The notes below the pieces were generated by a model. The model did no database searches. It was not told the DNA's origin and saw only the letters and a list, made by a program, of their open reading frames with translations. Positions 2,671 through 46,615 of a DNA stretch of 64,000 nucleotides are shown piece by piece. A program made the translations under genes and the position numbers. How positions within the stretch are numbered: the stretch's first letter is position 1; each line of letters opens with the position of its first letter. Source of the DNA: Pirellulales bacterium (GTDB taxonomy: Bacteria > Planctomycetota > Planctomycetia > Pirellulales > JALHPA01); assembly GCA_033762255.1 (NCBI GenBank), contig JANRLT010000028.1, positions 1-64,000 on the forward strand, written 5' to 3'.

Positions 2671-4782
2671 ATGCTGCGTAAGATTGCCCACGCCCACCCC
2701 GCGCTGCAGTTTTCGACCGCTTTGCCGTATGGAGCGATTCTGCATGAAGGCGGGGTTCAGTTTGTTGTGTTTAGCCGTTCCGCCACGGCCATGCGGCTGT
2801 TGCTGTATGATCGCGTGGAAGATCGCGAACCAAGCGAAATCATCGCCTTTGACCGCGAGAATGACCGTTGGGGCGATGTCTGGAGCGTCTACGTCCCCGG
2901 GCTGGGTGCCGGGCAATTATATCATTTTCAGGCGGACGGCCCCTTTGATCCCGAGCATGGGCACCGTTTTGACGGCAAGGCCCGCCTGATCGATCCGTAC
3001 GCCCGTGCGTTGGCGGGGAAATTTTTGCCCAGCGACGACGGCTTGGTCCGGCCCCCCAAATGCGTGGTGGTGGATGATCGGTTTGACTGGGGGGGCGATC
3101 GTCATATTAAACGCAGCCTGAGCGACACCATCATTTATGAAATGCATGTTCGCGGCTTTACCCGCGACCCCAGCAGCGGCGTGGACGCCCCGGGCACGTA
3201 TTTAGGCGTTATTGAAAAAATCCCGTACCTCAAATCGTTGGGGGTTACGGCGGTCGAGTTAATGCCCGTGCACGAATTTCCCATGGAAAGTCCCTTTGGC
3301 CAAAAGCTAGAGCGACCCAACTACTGGGGCTACGACCCGCTGGCGTTTTTTGCTCCGCACCGGGGTTATGCGGCCGGGTCAGAGCCAGGCTCGCAGGTTC
3401 GCGAGTTCAAGCAAATGGTCCGCGCGCTTCATCAAGCCGGGATTGAGGTAATCTTGGACGTGGTTTTTAATCACACGGCCGAGGGTAACGAACTCGGACC
3501 CACGCTCAGTTTAAAAGGTTTGGAAAATCGCGTTTACTACATGCTGGGCAATGGCGGCAGTTACTATAAAAACTACACCGGCTGCGGCAACACCATCAAT
3601 GGCAACCACCCGATCGTCCGCGAGATGATCTTCTTGTGCCTGCGGCATTGGGTGCTGAATTATCATATTGACGGCTTTCGGTTTGATCTGGCGTCGATTT
3701 TATCGCGCGACCGGAACGGCGAAGTGCTGAGCAATCCTCCCGTGGTGGAACTCATCGCCGAGGATCCACTGCTGGGCGATACCAAAATCATCGCCGAGGC
3801 CTGGGACGCCGCCGGGGCGTATCAGGTGGGCTCCTTTAGCCACATCCGTTGGGCCGAATGGAATGGCCGTTATCGGGACGATATTCGCCGTTACTGGCGC
3901 GGAGACCAGGGCCTGACCGGCGCCATGGCGACGCGGTTGACCGGCTCGAGCGATTTGTATCAGCCCGGCGGGCGGTCGCCGTACCATTCAATCAACTTTA
4001 TGACCTCGCATGATGGCTTTACGCTGAATGACCTGGTCAGTTATGAGCAAAAACATAATGAGGACAACGGCGAGGGAAATCGCGACGGGGATAATCATAA
4101 TCTGAGTTGCAATTATGGCGTCGAAGGTCCCACGCGCCGCAAAAATATCGAATCCCTGCGACTGCGGCAGATCAAGAACTTTTTGGCCACTTTGTTGTTA
4201 AGCCAAGGGGTCCCCATGCTGCTATCAGGCGATGAAGCGCGCCGCACGCAGCGCGGCAACAACAACGCGTATTGCCAGGATAACAACATCAGTTGGTTTA
4301 ACTGGAAAACACTAGAGAAAAACGCCGATCTGCTTCGCTTTGTGCAGGGGCTGATCAGTGTGCGCAAGTCCAATCCCACGCTGCGGCGGACAGAATTTTT
4401 AAATGGTACGCCCCATGGCCCGGACATGCTGCCGGATGTCAGTTGGTATAATGCCGCTGGCAAACCCATGAATTGGGAAACCGCCGATTGCAGCTTGACT
4501 TGCGTCTTTGGCATGCCCGAAGCGACGGCAAATCGCAATTTTTATGGCGAGGAACCGCGGCATGTCATGATCATGATGCATTCCGGGATATTGCCCAGGG
4601 ATTTTGTGGTCCCGGAACAAGTGCGGGGGATTTCCTGGCGATTGATGCTCAACACGGCGGCCCCCACTCCCGCCGATATATACCCCGATTTGGACGGGCC
4701 ATACTTGCCCGCAAAGGGGATCGTGCCGTTGTCCGATCGTTCGCTCGTCTGTTACATCTCGGCGGAAAAACATCCCGGTTAG
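2671..4782 (+). CDS. glgX: Glycogen debranching enzyme GlgX (isoamylase-type GH13)
   Basis: Cleaves alpha-1,6 branches of glycogen-like glucans in the cytoplasm. The start chosen is the ATG at 2671, preceded by GGAAGGA at a spacing of about 4; an ATG at 2635 is also possible. This gives 703 residues, typical for GlgX. An N-terminal CBM48-like domain (TALPYGAILHEGGVQFVVFS) is followed by the GH13 barrel with four conserved regions: VILDVVFNHT, DGFRFDLAS (nucleophile Asp339), IIAEAWDA (acid/base Glu376) and FMTSHDGFTL (Asp448). The family marker NYWGYDPLAFFAPHRGYA is present. No other glycogen genes are adjacent. A perfect terminator hairpin follows at 4916. Confidence 0.96.
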   Translation: MLRKIAHAHPALQFSTALPYGAILHEGGVQFVVFSRSATAMRLLLYDRVEDREPSEIIAFDRENDRWGDVWSVYVPGLGAGQLYHFQADGPFDPEHGHRFDGKARLIDPYARALAGKFLPSDDGLVRPPKCVVVDDRFDWGGDRHIKRSLSDTIIYEMHVRGFTRDPSSGVDAPGTYLGVIEKIPYLKSLGVTAVELMPVHEFPMESPFGQKLERPNYWGYDPLAFFAPHRGYAAGSEPGSQVREFKQMVRALHQAGIEVILDVVFNHTAEGNELGPTLSLKGLENRVYYMLGNGGSYYKNYTGCGNTINGNHPIVREMIFLCLRHWVLNYHIDGFRFDLASILSRDRNGEVLSNPPVVELIAEDPLLGDTKIIAEAWDAAGAYQVGSFSHIRWAEWNGRYRDDIRRYWRGDQGLTGAMATRLTGSSDLYQPGGRSPYHSINFMTSHDGFTLNDLVSYEQKHNEDNGEGNRDGDNHNLSCNYGVEGPTRRKNIESLRLRQIKNFLATLLLSQGVPMLLSGDEARRTQRGNNNAYCQDNNISWFNWKTLEKNADLLRFVQGLISVRKSNPTLRRTEFLNGTPHGPDMLPDVSWYNAAGKPMNWETADCSLTCVFGMPEATANRNFYGEEPRHVMIMMHSGILPRDFVVPEQVRGISWRLMLNTAAPTPADIYPDLDGPYLPAKGIVPLSDRSLVCYISAEKHPG

Positions 4783-42911: not shown

Positions 42912-43655
42912 ATGACACCCGTGGATGCACCGCTCGATTGCCTGGCCGTGGGGGCGCACCCCGACGATGTGGAGATTGCCTGCGGCGGCACGCTGGCCAA
43001 ACTAGCCCTACAAGGGTACCGCGTGGGCATCGTCGATTTGACCGATGGCGAGCCGACACCGCACTCGCCGGGGCCGGATGCCCGTCTGGCGGAGGCCAAA
43101 ATTGCCGCCGAGACCCTAGGCGTGCAGGTGCGGATCCAACTCAACCTGCCTAATCGTCGGTTATTCGACTGCTTTGAGGCGCGGGTGGCATTGGCCAAGA
43201 TTTTTCGCCGTTATCAACCCCGGCTGGTCCTAGGGATGTTTGACAAGACGCCGCTCGCCTCCCCCGACCATTATCAGGCGGTGCAAATCACCGACGCGGC
43301 GATTTTTTATTCGCGGCTGTCCAAATGGGATGAGGCATTTGACGGCCTGCCGGTCTTTCACGTCCCGGCGTACATGTATTATTCCCTGACCTTTGGCACG
43401 GTCCCGTTAGTCGGCGCGGGGGGGCAAATTGTCGTGGATATTGCCGACACCCTGGATACCAAACTGCGGGCCATCCAGTGCTATCAGACGCAGTTTTCGC
43501 ACAAGCCGGGAATTATCGAACGGGTCCGGGCCCATGCCGTGCAGCAAGGACACACCGCGGGCGTACCCGCCGGAGAATTACTGCTCTGCCCGCGAATGCT
43601 GGCGACCAATGACCTGATGGGACTGCTGTTTGGCGGGAGCAAGGGGGAGGGGTAA
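42912..43655 (+). CDS. PIG-L/LmbE deacetylase (BshB1-like)
   Basis: Zinc-dependent N-deacetylase of about 247 residues from the ATG at 42912; the frame is open a few codons upstream. The zinc motif is VGAHPDDVEIACGGTLAKL (about residue 14) and the second histidine lies in SPDHYQAVQITDAA, where most homologues have H-P-D-H. The closest named group I can suggest is BshB1, which deacetylates GlcNAc-malate in bacillithiol synthesis, because of the overall layout and GDGEPT-like strand (VDLTDGEPT). Neither bshA nor bshC is adjacent, so the substrate is open. The last codons and TAA lie in a G-rich repeat. Confidence 0.82.
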   Translation: MTPVDAPLDCLAVGAHPDDVEIACGGTLAKLALQGYRVGIVDLTDGEPTPHSPGPDARLAEAKIAAETLGVQVRIQLNLPNRRLFDCFEARVALAKIFRRYQPRLVLGMFDKTPLASPDHYQAVQITDAAIFYSRLSKWDEAFDGLPVFHVPAYMYYSLTFGTVPLVGAGGQIVVDIADTLDTKLRAIQCYQTQFSHKPGIIERVRAHAVQQGHTAGVPAGELLLCPRMLATNDLMGLLFGGSKGEG

Positions 43656-43735
43656 GGGGTTAGGGGAGAGGGGTTAGGGGGAAGGAGAGTGGGGAACGAG
43701 TGTAGGAATAACAAAGCCGCCGATGGTATCGGCGG
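43641..43735. repeat. G4-run tract and GCCGAT palindrome after the deacetylase
   Basis: 43641-43681 reads AAGGGGGAGGGGTAAGGGG then TTAGGGGAGAGGGGTTAGGGGG: at least six runs of four or more G separated by 2-3 bases, overlapping the gene's stop codon. At 43711-43735 follows ACAAAGCCGCCGATGGTAT then CGGCGG, a copy of the palindrome seen at 9173 and 17580, in the opposite orientation. Confidence 0.8.
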
Positions 43736-44834: not shown

Positions 44835-44989
44835 TCCCTCCAAAAATCGTTTCTTTGCCAATTGCGGGATTTTGCCGTCGTGGATTCTGCTACGCGCTGA
44901 TTTTCACGGCGATTTGAAATCCGGGCGGTTTTGATTCGTGGCCCCTATACGCTTGCAGGTTTCCAAGAAAGATAGAATTGAGTCAATCG

Positions 44990-46615
44990 ATGTCACAAAC
45001 GCGTTTCTTGCCGCGTAACACCAACCAGGTACGCGGCCTCGCCCAATACGCCATAGACTTTCTGCATCTCCCTCTCCCCCCGGGAGTGGGCCGGGGTGAG
45101 GGTTCCACAGCTCTCCCTCTCCCTCCAAGAGAGGGCCGGGGTGAGGGGCCTCCCGCTTCTTTTTCAATAACTGATTCTCCTGACAACGGTCCTTCGCGCC
45201 GTGTCTTGGACTTGGTCGAAAAATTCTTCCTCGACAGTCTGCTGTGCGGTGTGTCGGCCTTGGCGGCGGGGACCAATGCTCCCACGATTTTGCGGGCCGA
45301 AGCTCTTGATTATCCCGCCCTCAATCCCGCGCGGGGGGCAACCCTGTTTGGTTCTAGCACCCTCGTGCATCCAGAAAAGGCTGTCCTGGCAAACTGTGCC
45401 GCCGTGCGAGAATGGGACAGCAATGGCACTAACTTTGGCTATGACCCCGCGCGGGGAAATACCGCGGGAGAATTTGGTCATAATGACTTTTATCCCGTTG
45501 TGGTCGCTGCCGCCCAACAATGTGGCTGGAACGGCCCTCAATTATTACGGGGAATGCTGGCTCTGGATGAAATCCGTGGCCGCCTCGCGGAGGTTTTTTC
45601 CCTGAAATCCCATAAAATCGACCATGTGGTCCACGGGGCAATCGCCTCCGCCGTGGTCTATGGCGCGGCCTTGGGTTGCACCGTGGACCAGATAGAGTCG
45701 GCGGTGGGCCTGTTTATCGCCCATGCGATCCCGTTTCGGGCAATCCGCCACGGCCAGCAGCTATCCGACAGCAAGGGGGCCTCCGCGGCGATTAGCACGG
45801 AATTGGCCATCCAGGCGGTGCACCGCGCGCAGCGGGGATTTGTGGGTCCGGCGGATATCTTTCGTAATCCCGAGGCGATCTTTTGCCTGTTTGAACGGCC
45901 AGCGCGGCAGGGAGAAAGCCCGTTTGACTTGGAATTAGCCTTGAGCGGCGACGATTTTGCCATCGCTGGCATGCACTTTAAGCTGGGCCTGTACGAGCAC
46001 CAATCGGCGGGAGCGATTCAAGGAGTCTTAGATCTGTTGGCGGCGGAACCAGGGTTGCTGGACAGCGCGGACGCGATCAGCGAAATTTGCGTGACGATTT
46101 ACGAACCCGCTTATCACATTATTTGCGATCCCTACAAATGGCGTCCCGCCACGCGGCAAAGCGCGGATCATTCCTTGCCGTATATCATTGCCACATTACT
46201 GCGAAAAGCGCTGGAACAGCGAACGGCGGATTGGCAAACCCTGATGCTCTTGCCAGAGGATTACTCGACCGTGGCTCTAGGGCACCCCGTGACCCGCGCG
46301 TTGATGGAGCGCGTCAAGCTGGAGCATGGCGGGGCAGAATTTGACCGCCGCTATCCCGAAGGGATTCCCACGCGAGTGGCGATCGCGCATCGGTTATTAG
46401 GAACACTGCAAAGCGAGTTGGTCATGTTTCCGACCGGCCATGCGCGGAACACCGCAGCGCCGCTGGCGGATTTGTTGGCTTACAAGTTCCACGCGTTGGC
46501 CAGCATGGCATCCGGCCAGCCCGGAGAGTTGATCGCGCGGCTGGGAAACATCGCCGGAAAATCCTCGACAGATGTGCGGGCGCTGTATGACTTTCGCATT
46601 CATGGCATGGAGTAA
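44990..46615 (+). CDS. MmgE/PrpD-family dehydratase carrying an in-frame repeat insert
   Basis: Member of the 2-methylcitrate dehydratase/iminodisuccinate epimerase fold family, 541 residues from the ATG at 44990. Family features include the helix VEKFFLDSLLCGVSALAAG, NCAAVREWDSNGTNFGYDP (substrate loop with the catalytic Asp region), HNDFYPVVVAAAQ, HKIDHVVHGAIASAVVYGAALG and YRRYPEG-like EFDRRYPEGIPTRVAI. Residues about 26-54 (LPLPPGVGRGEGSTALPLPPREGRGEG) are not protein-like and are encoded by two copies of a G/C-rich repeat at 45068-45148. No prpB or prpC is adjacent, so 2-methylcitrate is not certain as the substrate. Confidence 0.85.
   Translation: MSQTRFLPRNTNQVRGLAQYAIDFLHLPLPPGVGRGEGSTALPLPPREGRGEGPPASFSITDSPDNGPSRRVLDLVEKFFLDSLLCGVSALAAGTNAPTILRAEALDYPALNPARGATLFGSSTLVHPEKAVLANCAAVREWDSNGTNFGYDPARGNTAGEFGHNDFYPVVVAAAQQCGWNGPQLLRGMLALDEIRGRLAEVFSLKSHKIDHVVHGAIASAVVYGAALGCTVDQIESAVGLFIAHAIPFRAIRHGQQLSDSKGASAAISTELAIQAVHRAQRGFVGPADIFRNPEAIFCLFERPARQGESPFDLELALSGDDFAIAGMHFKLGLYEHQSAGAIQGVLDLLAAEPGLLDSADAISEICVTIYEPAYHIICDPYKWRPATRQSADHSLPYIIATLLRKALEQRTADWQTLMLLPEDYSTVALGHPVTRALMERVKLEHGGAEFDRRYPEGIPTRVAIAHRLLGTLQSELVMFPTGHARNTAAPLADLLAYKFHALASMASGQPGELIARLGNIAGKSSTDVRALYDFRIHGME
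45068..45148. repeat. Two CTCTCCCTCTCC...GGGCCGGGGTGAGG repeats inside a gene
   Basis: Two adjacent copies (45068-45103 and 45112-45148) of a pyrimidine-to-purine element that could fold as a hairpin: CTCCCTCTCCCCCCGGGAGT with GGGCCGGGGTGAGGG, and CTCCCTCTCCCTCCAAGAGA with GGGCCGGGGTGAGGG. They keep the reading frame of the MmgE/PrpD gene. Such repeats are common between genes in other bacteria. Confidence 0.85.

Follow-up and report, generated by a model that had tools for sequence, protein, structure and literature searches.

A tandem pair of TM_ECO-type repeats read in frame within an MmgE/PrpD gene of a Pirellulales bacterium

In the 64,000-nt stretch of Pirellulales bacterium DNA analysed here (GCA_033762255.1, contig JANRLT010000028.1, forward strand; hereafter the window), a tandem pair of repeats of the TM_ECO type very probably entered an MmgE/PrpD gene between the codons for the first two helices of the N-domain, adding a flexible loop of ~36 residues to an enzyme whose function was probably kept. 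A preliminary description of the sequence had already pointed to two adjacent G/C-rich repeats translated in frame, and we find them as 45-bp-spaced copies that are read through without a stop codon in an ORF of 545 codons (44978-46615). The features discussed are collected in Table 1.

Table 1. Features of the repeat pair and its host gene, and other repeat-carrying genes of the same and related genomes
Feature	Position or locus	Strand	Remarks
MmgE/PrpD (2-methylcitrate dehydratase-like) gene	44990..46615	+	ORF, Pfam, relatives' register, predicted fold
Conserved N-terminal helix codons (NQVRGLAQYAIDFLH)	45023..45067	+	Upstream of repeats; invariant residues, predicted helix
Extra stretch, ~36 codons, residues 27-62 from ATG 44990	45068..45175	+	Absent from relatives; pLDDT
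Repeat copy 1	45068..45102	+	Reads LPLPPGVGRGEG; 1 mismatch to TM_ECO pattern
Copy 1 C-arm	45070-45078		
Copy 1 loop	45079-45081		
Copy 1 G-arm	45082-45090		One change; followed by CCG
Copy 1 third arm	45094-45102		
Spacer TTCCACAGCT	45103..45112	+	Between copies 1 and 2
Repeat copy 2	45113..45147	+	Reads LPLPPREGRGEG; 2 mismatches to TM_ECO pattern
Copy 2 C-arm	45115-45123		
Copy 2 loop	45124-45126		
Copy 2 G-arm	45127-45135		Two changes (AAGAGAGGG); followed by CCG
Copy 2 third arm	45139-45147		
PSD1/PSCyt protein, same genome	C20		In-frame repeat; Pfam
Second PSD1/PSCyt protein, same genome	C37		Repeat on opposite strand
1036-residue ORF without Pfam match, same genome	C44		In-frame repeat
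Histidine kinase, same genome	C54		Repeat in ATPase-domain loop
Pyruvate dehydrogenase E1, same genome	C29, L093 ~2959-2991		Partial motif reading GGEGRGEG, weak C-arm; doubtful member of the six ORFs
Phosphoglucomutase/phosphomannomutase, related genome	L302		Carries peptide
Protein kinase, related genome	L304		Peptide between domains
AIR-synthase-related protein, related genome	L289		Carries peptide
Methyltransferase, related genome	L308		Carries peptide
DNA polymerase I, related genome	L294 (G078)		Other-strand form between 5'-3' and 3'-5' exonuclease domains
DUF7133 protein, related genome	L312 (G023, contig C81)		Peptide-carrying
Cytochrome c protein, related genome	L298 (G023, contig C81)		Peptide-carrying

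The preliminary description called the repeats palindromic, which holds for part of their anatomy only: each of the two direct 35-bp copies, set in frame with 45 bp from start to start, consists of a C-arm, a 3-nt loop, a G-arm, the triplet CCG and a second G-rich arm, and is better described as a three-arm triplex motif of the TM_ECO type than as a plain palindrome. TM_ECO, an intrastrand-triplex motif earlier called 'PIT', was counted in 262 proteobacterial genomes by Holder et al. 2015 (PMC4666352), with the pattern CCCTCNCCC-N3-6-GGGNGAGGG-N3-GGGNGAGGG and one stem mismatch allowed. The window repeats show the same three-arm pattern with near-identical sequence, in keeping with the earlier suggestion that they are of a normally intergenic type, copy 1 having 1 mismatch and copy 2 having 2, which is beyond the published limit. 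Fits with no mismatch are seen in both copies of the 1036-residue ORF (C44) and in one copy of the PSD1/PSCyt gene C20. The spacer between the window copies resembles those of other coding-borne pairs (TTCCTCAGCT, TTCCTTAGCT and TTCCATCAAC).

When folded as bare hairpins, the two copies do no better than same-composition shuffles (z -0.55 and 0.09) in a tool that models base pairs and no triplexes, so the evidence rests on recurrence and pattern match rather than on folding energy. An informal look at the insert edges revealed no target-site duplication. Rfam returned a single microRNA match (E 0.66), which is far under the gathering score and which we take as chance.

The product of the host gene matches the Pfam families MmgE_PrpD_N (E 1.3e-30) and MmgE_PrpD_C (E 6.5e-16), its AlphaFold model has a mean pLDDT of 86.1, and Foldseek matches this model to solved PrpD/MmgE structures with E-values down to 3.3e-19; its N and C domains and its fold place it among the MmgE/PrpD enzymes. 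It is ~61-67% identical along its length to ten relatives and keeps many invariant residues. The protein is probably made and active, and probably functional.

The start codon is most likely the ATG at 44990, with an in-frame TTG at 44978 as a possible alternative. If translation instead began downstream of the repeats, for which the preliminary description had named a start near 45180, they would not be coding but a plain leader or an element of the 5' UTR. A published caution holds that many N-terminal intragenic REPs reflect misannotated starts (PMC3733652), and the Pfam match sets in only at residue 73, counted from the TTG. However, the codons before the repeats encode an NQ...YA[IL]DF helix that is present in 28 of the 28 relatives having the region and also in the 80 named relatives, while N12 and Q13 are invariant across 24 aligned sequences. 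The starts of the relatives share their register with the ATG at 44990, upstream of NQxRG, and AlphaFold predicts with confidence both a helix at residues 13-25, before the repeats, and one at residues 70-92, after them. Because this conserved helix is encoded upstream of the repeats, the true start should lie upstream as well, and we rejected a downstream start as extremely unlikely on the basis of the relatives' conserved upstream sequence and the predicted helix.

With helix 1 (NQxRG..YAIDF) encoded upstream and helix 2 downstream, the insert falls within the domain. These helices are separated by 52 residues here, versus 14-22 in all 80 named relatives (14 residues in 22 of them, 16 in 35, 17 in 2, 18 in 1, 19 in 16, 20 in 1 and 22 in 3). 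Among 29 foreign loci compared, the insert is absent from all 28 relatives having the region, a set that overlaps in some genomes with the 80; the edges of the extra stretch are uncertain by a few codons. The comparison reached no closer than one same-family genome (73% complete), which gave no match to the MmgE/PrpD protein, so that an empty site was not observed at the DNA level. Conserved sequence flanks the insert in the alignments with relatives. The frame is kept on both sides, as claimed earlier, and the gene is intact. Within an otherwise confident PrpD fold, pLDDT falls below 50 at residues 34-48, 50-59 and 62-64, i.e., over most of the insert, which is thus predicted to be disordered; its description as a low-complexity linker near the N-terminus holds as well.

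From these sequence comparisons, we infer that the stretch probably arrived by insertion rather than having been lost in all sampled relatives. The repeat pair would have arrived in the loop between N-terminal helices 1 and 2, and since the added length is divisible by three and the repeat has no stops in the frame used here, the enzyme would have gained LPLPPxxGRGEG twice, together with flanking residues, as a flexible loop.

A local low-complexity expansion that resembles the repeat, rather than the arrival of a dispersed element, is another way of reading the stretch, as the pair is tandem, its peptide is of low complexity, and G/C-rich proline-glycine codons arise easily. Nevertheless, the arms match a dispersed family almost base for base, the 80-bp pair recurs with 91% identity at two other places in the genome, in unrelated genes, and the insert of the C20 protein, located inside its PSD1 domain, is 30 residues long, which is exactly 90 nt or two units; local expansion is thus very improbable. 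As for the dispersed family itself, its recurrence is far from chance. The only two exact occurrences of GGGCCGGGGTGAGGG in the window fall at 45068-45147, and with up to 3 mismatches allowed there are 14, compared to a mean of 4.1 in shuffles. The core GAGGGNNGGGGTGAGGG has 52 genome-wide matches at up to 1 mismatch versus 4 for a reversed control. The many dispersed, near-identical copies that characterize TM_ECO are therefore found in this genome too, where the preliminary description had advised looking for the repeat. In 34 regions fetched around core matches, we counted 32 short-loop copies at up to 3 mismatches, 10 of them in six ORFs and the other 22 at 16 further loci; the reversed pattern had no match at up to 2 mismatches, and its 4 matches at 3 mismatches all overlap real copies.

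The in-frame repeat is thus not a single accident: it also occurs in four to five other ORFs here and in several ORFs of related genomes. For C20, the stretch containing the insert is 65 residues long, compared to 35 in seven of the eight homologues recovered (11 loci given) and 44 in the remaining one. The ATPase-domain loop of the histidine kinase C54 has 110 residues versus a variable 37-81 in 10 recovered homologues (11 given), with some of the extra length being other low-complexity sequence. The sense-strand coding cases all use one frame, a regularity that, with five or six genes, is drawn from too few to carry weight.

Whether the MmgE/PrpD insert is of use to its host is a separate matter. 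A co-opted insert, regulating the enzyme either as a protein loop or as a DNA or mRNA hairpin or triplex, would fit with its place close to the 5' end of the mRNA and with the triplex that single-stranded TM_ECO forms in vitro (PMC4666352). However, the G-arms of both window copies have changed whereas the C44 copies are perfect, the insertion sites are unrelated genes, and earlier work described in PMC4666352 reported no promoter or terminator activity for the motif, which together leave co-option highly doubtful. No sign of use for the insert was found at this locus. Given the missense changes present in both copies and the position in a loop, the insert appears to be tolerated rather than useful, and a dispersed repeat of this kind may be tolerated wherever the frame is kept and a loop is hit.

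The copies inside and outside genes differ in form. Outside the six ORFs, 20 of 22 copies have TACCGC (up to 1 mismatch) just downstream, versus 1 of 10 inside, and 14 of 22 have GCGGTA just upstream, versus none of 10 inside. Such intergenic short-loop copies sit within a GCGGTA/TACCGC palindrome and are often paired 100 bp apart (e.g., at L089, L094, and L105). A second intergenic form combines the same arms and a third arm with a loop of ~35 nt, of which there are at least four types, and has the exact C-arm CCCTCTCCC upstream in all 19 copies examined; one of these was also counted as short-loop, so that the two tallies overlap by one. Examples of the long-loop form are found at L079 (8480-8546), L080, L082, L084, L102, and L106. 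The coding-borne form has neither the palindrome flanks nor the long loop and occurs mostly as 42-45 bp tandems, and no intergenic copy of it was found at the one-mismatch level in this genome, where numbers are small. We tentatively raise the possibility, which we hold to be doubtful, that the triplex motif is a spreading planctomycete element with a coding-compatible form: a 45-bp unit, without stops in the frame used, that travels as a pair, is kept mainly in genes and is distinct from the two intergenic forms. If so, we would be dealing with an independent counterpart of the Rickettsia case discussed below, a selfish repeat that builds protein loops, here from a motif whose described location has until now been intergenic.

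As for how the motif moves, REP-associated Y1 (RAYT) transposases, as proposed for GTAG REPs, would be compatible with the insertion of a TM_ECO-type pair, and this genome has 10 Y1_Tnp matches; the hairpin of the repeat, with its conserved foot on the 3' side, also recalls REP anatomy. We nonetheless consider RAYT mobilization unlikely. Neither of two tests revealed a link to a Y1 transposase: in the second, a search of 34 of the 62 Y1 places in eight genomes found a copy within ~1.5 kb of none of them, so no Y1 gene was seen flanked by the repeat, while the same search recovered the motif in 33 of 34 repeat regions. TM_ECO in E. coli is likewise reported to be unlinked to mobile elements (PMC4666352). 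The GTAG/CGTC-tagged REPs themselves are also small palindromic repeats inside ORFs, described from several phyla and often as dimers encoding 20-30 residues, with DNA polymerase I among the published carrier genes (PMC3733652), but neither a GTAG nor a CGTC tag adjoins the coding-borne copies here. Copies of the intergenic form often have CTAC a few bases downstream, and that form may yet belong with the tagged REPs. The motif strings for which we searched are absent from the main text of that paper.

The window repeat behaves like the Rickettsia palindromic elements (RPE), which are in-frame repeats within genes (Ogata et al. 2000, as cited in PMC3767692). In both cases, palindromic repeats lie in frame in unrelated protein genes at solvent-exposed places with the gene spared, and the window repeat is in frame, missing from orthologues elsewhere, and in a flexible position. 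However, the published Rickettsia unit measures 100-150 bp, compared to 45 bp in pairs here, and belongs to another phylum. The window repeat thus works like an RPE but is probably of another repeat family, and membership is not claimed. The RU elements of enterobacteria are also small dispersed repeats in genes, but they are MITE-like units of 103-168 bp (PMC2759123). Relative to TM_ECO, the difference is one of location, which is not part of the sequence definition: in E. coli K-12 the motif is reported as always intergenic, and the published counts are proteobacterial (PMC4666352), whereas the present copies come from a planctomycete and are partly coding: besides the pair in the window, four to five further loci are inside ORFs. 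No report of TM_ECO inside genes was found in the limited literature collection searched, and the peptide strings are absent from the papers of that collection.

Related genomes carry the motif as well. The core GGGAGAGGGNCGGGGTGAGGG was found in 41 of the 97 genomes searched, this one included, with control matches at 0 in all 97. A pattern with a 4-nt loop matched 30 of 396 genomes and had 0 matches in this one, because its own copies have 3-nt loops. Searching for the peptide returned 38 rows from 17 of 396 genomes, this one among them, with in-frame peptides of this type in other genomes of the order; many rows are short or stop-containing frames. We viewed 14 of these loci, chosen mostly by frame length, and scanned 10 with Pfam, which gave a match in eight and none in two. 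The seven relatives' proteins listed in Table 1 are candidate cases. Two of them, L312 and L298, are large ORFs of one contig with opposite-orientation pairs in a single frame (LPLPPGEGRGEG ... PHPNPLPE).

A motif described as always intergenic in E. coli is thus seen, in a phylum far from that species, to enter genes and add enzyme loops on more than one occasion, and this repeated entry makes its spread testable. The peptide LPLPPGEGRGEG (other strand: PHPGPLPEGEG) flags candidate sites in any proteome. Annotators should note that an insert of this kind close to the N-terminus may consist of real codons and need not be the result of a wrong start. As a separate observation, the window also has a G-rich purine tract at 43641-43690, spanning a gene end and the following gap, which is possibly quadruplex-forming.
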